Of a DNA stretch of 35,293 bases, positions 12,365 through 19,902 are shown one piece after another. Positions within the stretch are counted from its first letter, which is position 1, and each line of letters begins with the position of its first letter. The notes beneath the pieces are model-generated. The model did not search any database, was not told where the DNA came from, and saw only the letters and a list, made by a program, of their open reading frames with translations. A program made the translations under genes and the position numbers. The DNA is from a virus, in the IMG/VR virus record IMGVR_UViG_3300031974_004173, positions 1-35,293 of that record; one strand, 5' to 3'.

Positions 12365-12394
12365 TTGACAAGTAATAATAAAAAAGAGTTTAAT
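12365..12394 (+). promoter_or_regulatory. Promoter of the acidic accessory operon
   Basis: A perfect TTGACA (12365-12370) is followed after 18 nt by TTTAAT (12389-12394, 5/6 to TATAAT). It lies 42 nt upstream of the first accessory ATG at 12436, in the correct orientation. The -10 box borders the operator-like dyad. Confidence 0.6.
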
Positions 12395-12395
12395 T

Positions 12396-12415
12396 GTATA
12401 CATTGATTACATACA
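12396..12415 (+). promoter_or_regulatory. Operator-like dyad, copy 1
   Basis: A hyphenated dyad GTAT...ATAC lies directly downstream of the -10 box and upstream of the ribosome site. The core GTATACATT-N4-A-CAT also occurs, inverted, at the integrase-side promoter (26404-26423), where 14 of 20 positions match. A shared repressor or activator site is inferred. Confidence 0.4.
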
Positions 12416-14809: not shown

Positions 14810-15080
14810 ATGGGATATAGATAATTGGACAGATTATTTTAATTTTAATACATCAGAAGAATTTATAGCAGAAATCTTGAACGGAGAGATTGCTATTGAA
14901 AAGATGCTTGATTCTGTTATGGAGTTAGCTAATGGTAATTTGGAAAATGCACAAGAGTTAGCACAAGAAATGTATTATAAAAAAGAAGAGCCGAAAGATC
15001 TGAACAATGAAAGCGGTTGGGATAGACATATAAGGCATATGGAATCTATTAAGAAAGCAAGGAATGGAGCAATAAAATGA
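14793..15080 (+). CDS. Unknown acidic 95-aa protein upstream of the methyltransferase
   Basis: The third copy of the operon leader (AAAGGAGGG, ending at 14787) stands 5 nt before the ATG. The 95 residues are helical and acidic: SEEFIAEILNGEIAIEKMLDSVMELANGN, then QELAQEMYYKKEE. The gene overlaps the methyltransferase by 4 nt (ATGA), so the two are translationally coupled. A regulatory or partner role for the enzyme is possible. No family was recognised. Confidence 0.6.
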   Translation: MATVDKWDIDNWTDYFNFNTSEEFIAEILNGEIAIEKMLDSVMELANGNLENAQELAQEMYYKKEEPKDLNNESGWDRHIRHMESIKKARNGAIK

Positions 15081-16585
15081 ACGTGCTTAGCCTATTTGAC
15101 GGAATGAGTTGCGGACAGATTGCACTTGATAGGCTTGGAATCAAGGTAGATAACTACTTTGCTTGTGAAATTGACAAGTATGCAATGCAAGTGACTCAAA
15201 CAAACTTTCCCAATACTGTTCAGTTGGGAGATGTGACTAAGGTGGACTTATCAAAATTACCAAAGATAGATTTGGTATTGGCAGGTTCACCTTGTCAAGG
15301 TTTTTCTTTTGCAGGAAAGCAGTTAGCTTTTGATGACCCAAGATCCGCATTGTTCTTTGAGTTCATTAAAATACTTAAAGAAATAAAGCCAAAGTATTTC
15401 TTACTTGAAAATGTAAGAATGAAAAAGGAGTTCTTGAATATCATTACAGAACAGGTTTCTTCTTGCTACCCAGAAATACCTTTTGGAATAGAACCAATAC
15501 TGATTAATAGTTCTTTAGTATCAGCTCAATCAAGGCAGAGATATTATTGGACTAACATTCCAGGAATTGAACAACCCAAAGAAAGAGGAATTGTTTTAAG
15601 AGATATCTTAGAAGAAAATCCAAATGAAGCTCCAACAAAAGATACAGCTAGAAACAGAAGACATTATAAAGAGTTGGATGATAAGTCTTTATGTATGACT
15701 GCAACAATGTATAAAGGGGCAGGAAATAATGGTATGACTTTAGTTCCACAAAAGCCTATTAAAGTAGGAATGAATGTTGAGCAAGTTAAAGTAAGAAAGC
15801 ACGAGGTTGATATTGCAAGTCTTCAATATTTATTGAGAGAAATGAAATCTAATAGCGGTAAAACAAACAAACAAATTGCTGAAGAAACTAATATGCCATT
15901 AACCAAAGTAGAGCATTGGTTTAGAACAGATGGCAGTTTTGCGATACCAAGTGATGATATTTGGTTTAAATTAAAAGAAGTTCTTGGTATTAAAACAGAT
16001 GTTTTTGATGCCCAGATCATGGAGTTTGAATATAGGGACGGAGTTTATGAAACCAAACAAAGGGTTTATAGTGAAGAGGGTAAGTCACCAACCCTTACCG
16101 CTTCTAACAAAGAGCAATACATAGAAACTTATGACGCACCGCAACAAGTAGGAACTGCTGTAGATATAAACGGACATGATATTTTGAAAAGAGTTTATAG
16201 CCCAGATGGTAAGTCGCCTACGGTAAATACTTGTCAAGGCGGAAACAGAGAGCCTAAAGTTGTCTGTGGTAGATATGTTGGCAGATATAAGATAGATGGA
16301 GTAAGGCAAGACCATAAGGGTTCTATTGCAGGAAAGTCTAAACAAATGCTAGAACTTAGAAAAGATCAGAAGACAAACAACCTATCTACAGTCCAGAAGG
16401 ATAATGTTTTGACTAAAGATGAGGTTTATTGGAGAAAGCTAACACCTTTAGAAGCAGAAAGACTGCAAACCGTTCCTGACAACTACACCAATCATGTATC
16501 AAATACCCAAAGATACAAGATGTTAGGTAATGGATGGACGGTTGAAGTTATATGTCACATCTTTAAAAATATGGAGATTAATTAA
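15077..16585 (+). CDS. dcm: DNA cytosine-5 methyltransferase with HTH insert and repeated TRD-like units
   Basis: This 502-aa enzyme has all C5-methyltransferase core motifs: LSLFDGMSCGQIAL (motif I), GSPCQGFSFAG with catalytic C73 (IV), LLENV (VI, E111), SAQSRQRYYW (VIII), LTPLEAERLQTVPDNY (IX) and MLGNGWTVEVI (X). Between VIII and IX about 290 residues are inserted. They include a helix-turn-helix-like part (TNKQIAEETNMPLTKVEHWF, about 263-282) and several similar target-recognition-like units with (G)KSPT(L/V). It probably modifies phage DNA against host restriction. Its recognition site cannot be read from sequence. The 3' end overlaps the convergent HNH gene by 8 nt. Confidence 0.9.
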   Translation: MNVLSLFDGMSCGQIALDRLGIKVDNYFACEIDKYAMQVTQTNFPNTVQLGDVTKVDLSKLPKIDLVLAGSPCQGFSFAGKQLAFDDPRSALFFEFIKILKEIKPKYFLLENVRMKKEFLNIITEQVSSCYPEIPFGIEPILINSSLVSAQSRQRYYWTNIPGIEQPKERGIVLRDILEENPNEAPTKDTARNRRHYKELDDKSLCMTATMYKGAGNNGMTLVPQKPIKVGMNVEQVKVRKHEVDIASLQYLLREMKSNSGKTNKQIAEETNMPLTKVEHWFRTDGSFAIPSDDIWFKLKEVLGIKTDVFDAQIMEFEYRDGVYETKQRVYSEEGKSPTLTASNKEQYIETYDAPQQVGTAVDINGHDILKRVYSPDGKSPTVNTCQGGNREPKVVCGRYVGRYKIDGVRQDHKGSIAGKSKQMLELRKDQKTNNLSTVQKDNVLTKDEVYWRKLTPLEAERLQTVPDNYTNHVSNTQRYKMLGNGWTVEVICHIFKNMEIN

Positions 16586-17458: not shown

Positions 17459-17710
17459 TTAAAAAATTAATGAGCTGCCAGCCAATGCAACAACAATAGC
17501 CCATGCGAATCTTTCAATCCAACCGATATAAACATTGCCTTTTGATTGAGACTGTTCAAGACTTCTTAATCTAAACTCATGATCCTGTAGATCATCTTTC
17601 TGAGCGATCATTCTCTCTTCTAATCTAGGAAGAATAGATGTGAGCTTATGAACCTCTTCCATTTTTTTTTCGAGGTTGTCGAGTCGCATTTCTAACGCTT
17701 TTAGCTCCAT
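17459..17710 (-). CDS. XhlA-like coiled-coil protein with C-terminal membrane segment
   Basis: The ATG at 17710 is preferred because AGGAA lies 8 nt upstream; an upstream TTG at 17752 lacks a ribosome site. The 83 residues form a long heptad-like helix (LEMRLDNLEKKMEEVHKL, then LPRLEERMIAQ and FRLRSLEQS). A single hydrophobic segment (WAIVVALAGSSLIF) closes the C-terminus. This is the layout of XhlA-type holin accessory proteins. With the DUF5675 gene downstream it forms a likely lysis cassette. Confidence 0.62.
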   Translation of the reverse strand: MELKALEMRLDNLEKKMEEVHKLTSILPRLEERMIAQKDDLQDHEFRLRSLEQSQSKGNVYIGWIERFAWAIVVALAGSSLIF

Positions 17711-17770
17711 ATAATATATTCCTGTTAAATGTAAAAGATATAATAAAAACAATACAAGAACAAGTTTATA

Positions 17771-17798: not shown

Positions 17799-17814
17799 AA
17801 AAAAGGTAGGGAAT

Positions 17815-17982
17815 ATGTATTGCGAGGATTGTGGAAACAAAACCAAAGTTATTGATTCAAGAAATATTTTAGAAAACGGAACAATTGTTTATAGAAGAAG
17901 AGAGTGCCCGGTTTGTCGGGTAAGATTTAACACTTTTGAAGAACGACAAAAAAAAATTCAAAAGTCAATAAGTAAAGATTAA
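17815..17982 (+). CDS. NrdR-like zinc-ribbon protein lacking the ATP-cone
   Basis: This 55-aa protein matches the N-terminal zinc ribbon of the NrdR repressor, with the two C-x2-C pairs and the diagnostic TKVIDSR, RRREC and FNTFEER elements in register. Bacterial NrdR continues for about 100 residues with an ATP-cone that senses dATP/ATP; here the gene stops right after the ribbon. It might bind NrdR boxes without nucleotide control, repressing or de-repressing host ribonucleotide reductase genes. GGTAGGGAAT precedes the ATG. It sits with one other gene on the plus strand between minus-strand blocks. The family match is strong, the role is inference. Confidence 0.85.
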   Translation: MYCEDCGNKTKVIDSRNILENGTIVYRRRECPVCRVRFNTFEERQKKIQKSISKD

Positions 17983-18051: not shown

Positions 18052-18228
18052 ATGTTAGTTAAAGAAGCAATAATAAAAGTAGCCAGAGAGCTCAAAAACC
18101 AAGAAGAAAAAACCTATCAAGATTCAGACTTGTTAGTAGGGTATCCAGAAGACCTAAACCCTGAAGATATAAAAAAGGCAATGGTTGCAATAGCTTCAGT
18201 TTCTGACGCAATTGTAAATTTATATTAA
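18052..18228 (+). CDS. Unknown 58-aa protein
   Basis: The ATG at 18052 has GGAAAG 7 nt upstream. The protein shows an N-terminal amphipathic helix (EAIIKVARELKNQEEK), a turn with GYPEDLNPED and a C-terminal helix (KKAMVAIASVSDAIVNLY). It follows the NrdR-like gene in the same orientation after 69 nt. Its last 9 nt overlap the convergent gene. Too short to place in a family. Confidence 0.5.
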   Translation: MLVKEAIIKVARELKNQEEKTYQDSDLLVGYPEDLNPEDIKKAMVAIASVSDAIVNLY

Positions 18229-18421: not shown

Positions 18422-18595
18422 TCAATGATAAGTTATATCATGATCATCATAAACCAAAACCTCGTTAAGTTCACCTATAAGATCAAGCCCTATATCGTCT
18501 AAGATTCTTTGTGCTTGGTGGTGATCTTCAGCTATTATGAGAAATTGTTGGGGTGTTTGCTCGTCTTGGGTAATAGACCCATAGAATACCTTCAT
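18422..18595 (-). CDS. Unknown acidic 57-aa protein
   Basis: The start at 18595 overlaps the preceding stop (ATGA, 4 nt). The 57 residues look like a small alpha/beta fold: strand (KVFYGSIT), helix (QQFLIIAEDHHQAQRILDDIG) and strand (ELNEVLVYDD). It is acidic, in contrast to the basic genes upstream. The ATGA junction and the coding-like sequence are the evidence. Function is unknown. Confidence 0.5.
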   Translation of the reverse strand: MKVFYGSITQDEQTPQQFLIIAEDHHQAQRILDDIGLDLIGELNEVLVYDDHDITYH

Positions 18596-18936
18596 TTTTT
18601 AGGCGGTGATTTCTTACTCCCCCCCGAACCAGACCAAAGTTTTTTCCTTGCCCAATAGTTCGCAGAGAACTTATCATTCTTTGTAAGCCCGCCTGATTTG
18701 TTTTTGATTCCTGCGGATCGTGCAAGATAAGACTTCCTAGCTTTACTAGAATAATTATGCCCATAATCTTTATGCCCAAATCTGACAACTTTAATTTCAT
18801 TACCTTTTTTTGCTAGCACTTCCATTTTGTGCTTGCTTGATCCTGTGTTTCTTCTTGGCTTATTAAATCCTGGATACTTCTTGCCTCGATAAACAACACC
18901 ACCAGAGACTCTTTTTGTGTCTTTAGTTGTTGCCAT
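18592..18936 (-). CDS. Small lysine-rich phage protein (114 aa)
   Basis: This basic protein is rich in Lys, Arg, Gly and Ser. The region KVVRFGHKDYGHNYSSKARKS, then YLARSAGI and DKFSANYWARKKLW, resembles a family of small phage proteins with a VxFG...KARK...ARSAG...ANYWARK pattern, whose function is not known. It has a TAATG overlap with the upstream gene. Because it lies in a run of similar small basic genes, DNA or nucleoid binding or packaging with DNA is possible. Confidence 0.6.
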   Translation of the reverse strand: MATTKDTKRVSGGVVYRGKKYPGFNKPRRNTGSSKHKMEVLAKKGNEIKVVRFGHKDYGHNYSSKARKSYLARSAGIKNKSGGLTKNDKFSANYWARKKLWSGSGGSKKSPPKK

Positions 18937-19178
18937 TATCTTTTCCTCCCTTTGTGTAATCCGTGTCTAGCGTGTTGCTTACCTTTTGCTGTTGCTTTTC
19001 TTTTTACCCGATTAGCCTGAGCTAACTTTTTTCTGCCCTTTGCTGTAGATTTTAACTTTGCTATTGTCTTTGCTGGAGCATAGACTTCACCAGTCACACT
19101 AGATTTTTTTCCACTAGCAGTTCGCCAATTCTGCTTACTCCACATTTTAAGTGATTTCTGTGATTTTTTTAATGGCAT
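18936..19178 (-). CDS. DUF6321-like small basic protein (80 aa)
   Basis: The sequence SLKMWSKQNWRTASGKKS, followed by GEVYAPAKTIAKL and a Lys/Arg-rich tail ending HGLHKGRKR, follows the DUF6321 pattern (W-x-x-Q-x-W-R-T-S-G-K-x-S ... Y-x-P). Almost a third of residues are Lys or Arg. These proteins are small, basic and of unknown role in many phages. It is followed by a TAATG overlap with the 114-aa gene. Confidence 0.62.
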   Translation of the reverse strand: MPLKKSQKSLKMWSKQNWRTASGKKSSVTGEVYAPAKTIAKLKSTAKGRKKLAQANRVKRKATAKGKQHARHGLHKGRKR

Positions 19179-19196
19179 AATCTTAAATAAGTATAG

Positions 19197-19340
19197 TTAT
19201 TTTTTAGTTGTCCTTCTTCTAGCGTTTGCTTTTCTTCTAACCCTTGAAACTTTTTTCTTTGGGGTGGATTTTTCCATCATTCGTTTTTCTTGTCTGTTGA
19301 GTGTCCACTCTATAAATCTGTCAAATAATTTACCAATCAT
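19197..19340 (-). CDS. 47-aa highly basic protein
   Basis: The ATG at 19340 overlaps the preceding stop (ATGA). The first 22 residues form an aromatic helix (KLFDRFIEWTLNRQEKR); the rest is strongly basic (STPKKKVSRVRRKANARRR). The helix-plus-basic-tail design suggests nucleic-acid binding by the tail. No family is known to me. Confidence 0.5.
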   Translation of the reverse strand: MIGKLFDRFIEWTLNRQEKRMMEKSTPKKKVSRVRRKANARRRTTKK

Positions 19341-19540
19341 TTTTTATAACCTCCGCCTTTTGCTTTATACATTCTAGCTAACATCTGGGCTTTTCTTGCT
19401 GACCATTGACCAGCTCTTCCGCCTTTTGATCCTGCTTTAATTTGATTAAAGAGATTCTTTCGCATTGTTGGTTTAGTATAGTTGCCAGCAGAATTGACTG
19501 TTGATTTTTTTTTAGTAGTTTTGCTACTTTTTCTTAGCAT
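19337..19540 (-). CDS. DUF5872-like small basic protein (67 aa)
   Basis: LFNQIKAGSKGGRAGQWSARKA, followed by QMLARMYKAKGGGY, fits the DUF5872 pattern (W-E-x-V-K-A-x-x-K-G-G-x-x-G-Q-W-S-A-R-K-A-Q-x-A-x-x-Y-K-x-x-G-G-G-Y) found in many phage and bacterial small proteins. The N-terminus is basic and disordered. The function of the family is not established. It overlaps the 39-aa gene by 17 nt and the 47-aa gene by 4 nt. Confidence 0.7.
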   Translation of the reverse strand: MLRKSSKTTKKKSTVNSAGNYTKPTMRKNLFNQIKAGSKGGRAGQWSARKAQMLARMYKAKGGGYKK

Positions 19541-19643
19541 TTGTTTTTCTTAGTTTTTTAAAATCAGCACCAGTAATCTTGTTTCTAGGATTTGCTACCT
19601 TTGCTATTTTTTTTTGTTTTGGTGAATACTTTTTAAAAGGCAT
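19524..19643 (-). CDS. 39-aa basic protein with KITGADFKKLR motif
   Basis: The ATG at 19643 overlaps the stop of the 24-aa gene (TAATG). MPFKKYSPKQKKIA, followed by KITGADFKKLR, matches a recurrent tiny phage-protein pattern (PRxKITGADFKxLR) of unknown role. It is extremely basic. Junction geometry and motif support translation. Confidence 0.55.
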   Translation of the reverse strand: MPFKKYSPKQKKIAKVANPRNKITGADFKKLRKTNAKKK

Positions 19644-19717
19644 TATTTCTTTTTACCTTTTTTAGTTTTCTTTTTTTTAGGCTTTCCATAACCCATACCT
19701 TTTTTACCATAACCCAT
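19643..19717 (-). CDS. 24-aa lysine-rich micro-protein with MGYGK repeat
   Basis: A consensus AGGAGG lies 8 nt upstream of the ATG at 19717, and TAATG overlaps join it to both neighbours. The product repeats MGYGK twice and then is nearly all Lys. More than half of the residues are Lys. At this size only the ribosome site, the two junctions and the reading pattern support it, but all agree. Confidence 0.55.
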   Translation of the reverse strand: MGYGKKGMGYGKPKKKKTKKGKKK

Positions 19718-19902
19718 TATTTTTTCCTCCTAGATTTTTTAGCTTTAGCCTTTGCCTTTTGAGATAGATCGCCATAATGGAATAACTTAAAGCTAGATGC
19801 TGAGTGCTTTACACCAGAGTGCAAAGATCCATCTGGCATTTTGTGGTATCCGCCTTTATGTAAAGTTCCATCCTTTTTGTAATGGTTCACGCCTTTTGCC
19901 AT
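19717..19902 (-). CDS. Small basic phage protein (61 aa) with HYKKDGTLHKGGYHKMPDG
   Basis: The N-terminal HYKKDGTLHKGGYHKMPDG, followed by SLHSGVKHS, is a recurring pattern in small phage proteins of unknown function (HYxxDGTxHKGxxHKMPNGxxM). The tail is Lys/Arg-rich. The gene overlaps the end of the 120-aa gene by 47 nt. It starts the run of basic micro-genes. Confidence 0.6.
   Translation of the reverse strand: MAKGVNHYKKDGTLHKGGYHKMPDGSLHSGVKHSASSFKLFHYGDLSQKAKAKAKKSRRKK

Follow-up and report, generated by a model that had tools for sequence, protein, structure and literature searches.

In most bacteria, ribonucleotide reductase is under the control of the dATP sensor NrdR. The viral locus described here encodes a protein of 55 amino acids that resembles the N-terminal part of this regulator, and it raises the question of what a phage does with an NrdR that ends behind its zinc ribbon. 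The DNA analyzed (the window) is an IMG/VR virus record of 35,293 bases. A previous sequence-only reading had described the gene as a reduced NrdR, a possible constitutive repressor, competitor for NrdR boxes or partner of host NrdR, and had placed its target in the host. The gene and the sequence preceding it are located as follows:

17805..17812, plus strand: ribosome-binding-site-like sequence GGTAGGGA just 5' of the ATG
17815..17982, plus strand: ribbon-only NrdR-like gene with ATG start, 55 amino acids, product MYCEDCGNKTKVIDSRNILENGTIVYRRRECPVCRVRFNTFEERQKKIQKSISKD; assigned by Pfam PF22811, by PDB and Foldseek matches and by dN/dS

When the product was searched against Pfam, we found a match to the zinc ribbon of NrdR (PF22811, Zn_ribbon_NrdR) of 48.9 bits (E 6e-13) that covered all 42 positions of the domain (1-42) and exceeded the curated cut-off of 27.2 bits by 21 bits. 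An independent search of the whole record recovered this match (E 5e-14). A PDB sequence search with the protein (E <= 0.1) returned NrdR alone. An AlphaFold model (pLDDT 84) predicted three strands (residues 11-17, 24-30, 37-43), and in a Foldseek search of the PDB every match with an E value below 1e-3, 12 in total, was an NrdR chain, so that the predicted model adopts the NrdR ribbon fold. The sequence-only reading had named assignment to another zinc ribbon family as a possible refutation, and here the profile searches decided for NrdR. The model of full-length NrdR (TIGR00244) gave 40 bits over model positions 1-54 of 147, i.e. over its N-terminal part only, which is far below its cut-off of 124.65 bits. 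The ATP/dATP-sensing ATP-cone (PF03477) was not matched by the 55-residue product in the profile search, and residue 55 is the last of the frame. The ribbon of E. coli NrdR comprises residues 1-44 and its cone residues 50-150 (PMC12176259), and thus the window protein, which is 55 residues long versus about 150 for NrdR, has no cone. The lack of a cone had been read correctly from the letters, as had the lack of a ribonucleotide reductase gene, since neither the large- nor the small-subunit models found a match in the window.

In their solved structures, the NrdR proteins of S. coelicolor and E. coli contact the DNA backbone with R12, R26-R29 and R37 and the bases with D15 and R17 (PMC9110341, PMC12176259). 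Their ribbons pair via strand beta3 with R27, R29 and E42 (PMC9110341, PMC12176259). The corresponding elements of the window protein are:

17821..17832, plus strand: first zinc-binding CxxC motif (C3, C6), aligned with C3 and C6 of NrdR
17854..17862, plus strand: D14-S15-R16, the aligned equivalents of the base-contacting residues D15 and R17 (contacts according to PMC9110341)
17893..17901, plus strand: R27-R28-R29, the DNA backbone arginines, of which R27 and R29 are also ribbon-ribbon salt bridge residues
17905..17916, plus strand: second zinc-binding CxxC motif (C31, C34)
17923..17940, plus strand: R37 (DNA backbone) to E42 (ribbon-ribbon salt bridge) on strand beta3 (model strand 37-43)
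17941..17979, plus strand: short polar and basic tail that replaces the ATP-cone, from the translation; the tail of the nearest homologue (L003) differs

In an alignment of 53 sequences, 51 of which were ribbon-only, C6, R27, R28, R29, C31, C34 and E42 were invariant. C3 and R16 were each found in 51 of the 53 sequences and R37 in 47, and position 14 was occupied by Asp (35) or Glu (13) in 48. The window protein shares with the NrdR ribbon the zinc cysteines, the RRR motif, the D15 and R17 equivalents and E42, and it keeps the conserved contact residues as well as the pairing residues R27, R29 and E42. It carries Lys at the position of R12, as does E. coli NrdR. It differs from NrdR by one missing residue ahead of TKVIDSR, by one additional residue ahead of RRR and by Tyr at the position of R26, so that three of the four arginines of the RRRR element are kept. 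The near-invariance of the zinc cysteines, of RRR, of the Arg17 equivalent and of Glu42 suggests that DNA binding and ribbon-ribbon pairing were probably retained and that dATP sensing was lost. Judged from these residues, neither the DNA-binding nor the pairing surface would have been lost; the nucleotide switch would be missing, together with the contact between cones by which two boxes are held.

The surroundings of the gene were compared with those of other IMG/VR records. One of them (L002) contains an identical copy of the ribbon gene and another one (L003) an 85% identical homologue, and both share gene neighbors and gene order with the window. Two neighbors are needed in the following:

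17459..17752, minus strand: small gene with a coiled-coil/TM-like product, in divergent orientation to the ribbon gene; L003 and L023 have the same neighbor
18052..18228, plus strand: 58-residue gene without assigned function, syntenic with the ribbon gene in most relatives (comparison of relatives)

Of 13 longer records from related phages, whose TerL is 76-94% identical to that of the window, 11 carry the ribbon gene as open frames of 53-68 residues and two lack it; it is also present in short records of relatives. In most relatives that show both genes, it stays in the slot adjoining the 58-residue gene. For the ribbons of the window and L003, dN was 0.063 and dS 1.10 (45 codons), which gives a dN/dS of about 0.06, and values from 0.0 to about 0.3 were obtained for the ribbons of the sister phages. 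These data confirm that the gene is under purifying selection and is neither a chance reading frame nor a pseudogene. The window type of ribbon (VIDSR) and the sister type (VVDVR) are 42-46% identical in the alignment. Since the TerL proteins are about 90% identical, this strong difference suggests either replacement of the ribbon or its fast divergence.

On the 3' side of the ribbon gene, several sister phages (L172, L174-L178, L180-L182, L186) have a GC-rich hairpin followed by a T-run, which resembles an intrinsic terminator; the 58-residue gene comes next with a conserved upstream block of its own. Positions 18592-19902 of the window (minus strand) hold a run of very small Lys/Arg-rich genes (114, 80, 67, 61 residues and others), which have relatives in matching order in L086, L119 and L023. 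Positions 15077-16585 (plus strand) encode a 502-residue cytosine DNA methylase (PF00145 over residues 1-499), which has a long insert in its middle and matches a helix-turn-helix weakly. In the phage collection it is matched best by two pelagiphages and by an uncultured Mediterranean phage (51-52% identity). The methylase gene lies close to the ribbon gene in L003 and L023 and is absent in L086 and L119.

We scanned 2.9 million viral contigs by alignment and obtained 73 loci; since the scan relied on one motif, they are not an unbiased sample. The product is a ribbon-only protein of about 48-122 residues in 71 of them (one is cut by its contig end) and full NrdR in just two (L035, L043). Among isolated phages, ribbon-only proteins were also found in Halomonas phage YPHTV-1 (gene 18, 51 residues, deposited as NrdR), Geobacillus phage GBSV1 (60 residues), Anaerostipes phage AC844P1 (66 residues), Blautia phage Montmirail (52 residues) and Rhodobacter phage RcZahn (gene 96, 71 residues, deposited as Ogr/Delta-like). 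Gene 28 of Synechococcus phage S-SRP02 (L170, 20018-20617, 199 residues), published as NrdR, has the ribbon and no ATP-cone match. Like the window protein, the products of S-SRP02 gene 28 and YPHTV-1 gene 18 thus combine an NrdR-type ribbon with the lack of a cone, for which the YPHTV-1 product is too short; they differ in that they come from other phages with other neighbors, and they were named NrdR by similarity only. A literature search, which missed most subscription journals, returned no study of ribbon-only NrdR proteins and no functional study of these two genes. Three PHROG families to which no function is assigned (36879, 10675, 21896) also match the ribbon protein, but their profiles are longer (89-119 positions). 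The neighbors of the ribbon genes in other phages are varied with few shared families, and those that can be named are largely replication and nucleotide genes.

Our first search of a phage collection gave six matches (L004-L009; L009 was left out of the reading). One of them, from a Parageobacillus phage (L005), is a true ribbon-only protein. L004 and L006, which are records named as phage, were rejected as phage NrdR since the open reading frame is a full-length NrdR in apparently bacterial DNA; L007 and L008 fall into the full-length set and are probably bacterial DNA in phage records as well. Such bacterial-looking full-length sequences call for caution when phage NrdR proteins are counted.

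In bacteria, PF22811 was matched in 162 of 199 sampled Pseudomonadota genomes, nearly always once per genome, and among the matches listed the scores were about 69-83 bits with frames of 148-259 residues. Ten phage ribbons scored 23-59 bits. In a tree of the 42-residue cores, full-length and ribbon-only sequences intermingled with no branch resolved, so that recent truncation and an old separate family are not distinguishable from the tree. However, since ribbon-only proteins are widespread in phages and the sampled bacteria have the full-length form, we do not regard the window gene as a host nrdR that was truncated recently. Ribbon-only NrdR-like proteins are a broad phage class, to which the window protein belongs with its ribbon and without a cone, and they are a fixed gene in the related phage group. 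What had been called a reduced NrdR is a cone-less NrdR ribbon, but the distribution among viral loci and longer relatives speaks against a one-off truncation.

For all mismatch counts, NrdR-box-like sites were defined by the literature consensus of the NrdR box. This pattern was fixed before the upstream regions were inspected, and 400 palindromes permuted from the same letters served as control. Boxes with at most one mismatch occurred in 2 of 29 upstream regions of ribbon genes (control mean 0.01), and none of the 400 permuted palindromes reached 2. With at most two mismatches 3 of 29 regions were positive (mean 0.22; fraction of permuted palindromes 0.003), two of which come from one phage group, so that there are about two independent cases. 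With at most three mismatches the enrichment was weak (5 regions, mean 2.4, fraction 0.083). When whole records were scanned at up to two mismatches, the box was present in 9 of 37 ribbon-phage records and a reversed control pattern in 4 of 37; raw counts alone therefore say little, and placement matters.

At the early-operon promoter of the sister phages lies RTACKATATRTAGTGT, which differs from the consensus at 2-4 positions and overlaps TTGACA on the operon strand. The coiled-coil gene and the early operon of small genes, the last of which is the ribbon gene, diverge from the gap in which this site is located. The site falls within the most conserved 16-column stretch of this intergenic alignment (0.875 invariant columns versus a mean of 0.35), and this conservation is partly due to the -35 hexamer. 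In the same gap of a more divergent group member (L187), ACACAATATATCGTGT is found between TTGACA and TTGAAT, and L189 has a weaker site with three mismatches in a gap that matches the one of the sister phages. An unrelated phage (L204) carries ACACAATATGTAGTGT at a distance of 1450 bp 5' of its ribbon gene; in L195, a relative of this phage, a site with three mismatches is found at the corresponding place. The L204 box is flanked by two genes whose products, by our own reading, contain ribbon-helix-helix-like sequence and which may be its real readers. A ribbon gene with a box at its operon promoter is thus seen in the sister phages, in a more divergent member and possibly in one unrelated phage. 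Judged from its sequence, the early promoter of the sister phages would be the best candidate site for the ribbon.

This feature of few class members was not found in the window, and the search of the window phage for NrdR boxes that had been proposed from the sequence gave a null result: at up to three mismatches there were 3 sites versus 4.7 expected, none above chance. Neither the ribbon promoter nor the early-operon promoter of the window has a site with fewer than five mismatches. The early promoter is:

12365..12394, plus strand: putative sigma70-like promoter (TTGACA, 18 nt, TTTAAT) of the early run of small genes, identified by eye

Unlike its counterpart in the sister phages, it contained no NrdR-box-like palindrome in the box scan. 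The inverted repeats 5' of the window ribbon gene were AT-rich and included no good palindrome. A palindrome at the start of the 58-residue gene, ATGGAAAGTTCCCAT, was rejected as operator since it is a single good copy and its repeats were not above chance. Eight isolated-phage loci, seven of which were stretches of about 6-8 kb and one (S-SRP02) nearly whole, contained no box at up to three mismatches. Beside the early promoter, several sister phages carry the near-palindrome GTAAACATTGATTAC or a similar sequence (L119 8100-8225 and equivalents), and a related sequence, GTATACATTGATTAC, was seen by eye at positions 12396-12410 of the window. These near-palindromes are a possible second operator.

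How should the protein be understood? A decaying remnant of an acquired nrdR would account for the absence of the cone that defines NrdR, but the dN/dS versus the nearest homologue already contradicts decay, the gene occupies a fixed slot and 71 of its 73 viral relatives are likewise ribbon-only, which makes this reading hardly tenable. We also consider it very unlikely that the protein is an Ogr/Delta-type zinc finger activator of phage late transcription that merely resembles NrdR. The proteins of this family (PF04606) are small single-zinc phage regulators like the window protein, there is weak similarity (15.5 bits), and the homologue of RcZahn carries this name. However, the score misses the family cut-off of 26.3 bits and that of PF22811 is clearly exceeded, the significant fold matches are all NrdR, and the nameable neighbors in other phages point to replication and nucleotide metabolism.

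Two further readings would direct the ribbon to the host, for which a search of TerL against GTDB gave a single distant match (Oceanisphaera, 32% identity); no tRNA was found in the window. As a dominant-negative partner, the phage protein would cap the ribbon contacts of host NrdR, block the tetramer, derepress host ribonucleotide reductase and raise the dNTP supply. In the solved structures NrdR tetramers depend on ribbon-ribbon pairing and the ATP-cone alone forms only dimers (PMC9110341), so that pairing of the phage ribbon with host NrdR is plausible by analogy, and its pairing residues are invariant in phages. Moreover, NrdR is common in the sampled Pseudomonadota, and among the ribbon-phage records searched, only 1 of 33 (a 331-kb record) has a ribonucleotide reductase large subunit. 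The NrdR regulon is raised when a pneumococcal phage infects its host (PMC6755750), which by analogy would fit an interest of phages in the NrdR circuit. Nevertheless, we regard capping as rather unlikely, since DNA-contact residues, which it does not need, are conserved as much as the pairing residues and since it leaves the NrdR-box-like sites in phage promoters unexplained. Binding to the NrdR boxes of host nrd promoters, as competitor or as constitutive repressor, also appears improbable to us. It is in line with the retained base-contacting Asp and Arg and the RRR motif, with the NrdR-like VIDSR of the window ribbon, whose nearest non-sister sequence is E. coli NrdR (in the tree without resolved branches), and with a record of its own that holds no box above chance. 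On the other hand, tight binding of NrdR needs paired boxes at set spacing, so that one pair of ribbons may not bind strongly enough, and shut-off of ribonucleotide reductase would harm phage replication unless the ribbon merely displaces NrdR.

The explanation that we prefer, and to which we give about an even chance, is that the ribbon is a small phage transcription regulator that acts as the DNA-binding half of NrdR. Two ribbons would pair through beta3 and the salt bridges of R27, R29 and E42, and the pair would grip an NrdR-box-like palindrome via the RRR motif, D14 and R16. Without the cone there would be neither ATP/dATP switching nor a two-box tetramer, and its absence would make the protein a nucleotide-blind binder of a single box; such an isolated pair may bind DNA weakly. 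In the sister phages the likely operator would be the palindrome that overlaps the early-operon promoter, with the ribbon gene as last gene of the operon. This position of the palindrome points to autorepression or to an early-gene switch, and it makes a promoter of the phage at least as likely a target as the host. That the target would be in the host, as originally proposed, does not follow. DNA binding, dimerization and repression are what we infer here, and so is the target in the window phage, where the box is missing and the ribbon would most likely act at host NrdR boxes or at a different promoter of the phage. The window sequence would be compatible with either of these targets and also with capping of host NrdR.

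In its broadest form, which we put forward tentatively and consider doubtful, the idea is that nucleotide-blind NrdR ribbon pairs of many phage lineages would read NrdR-box-like operators to time early genes and would also cut the dATP feedback on host ribonucleotide reductase, by occupancy of nrd boxes or by capping of host NrdR. If this were true, one small protein would tie phage gene timing to the host supply of DNA precursors. A widespread phage class that keeps only the DNA-binding and pairing part of NrdR could use it to rewire or escape dATP feedback without a ribonucleotide reductase gene of its own. The ribbon-only class is a natural test of the role of the ribbon without the cone and would give a testable function to phage families that are now listed without one.
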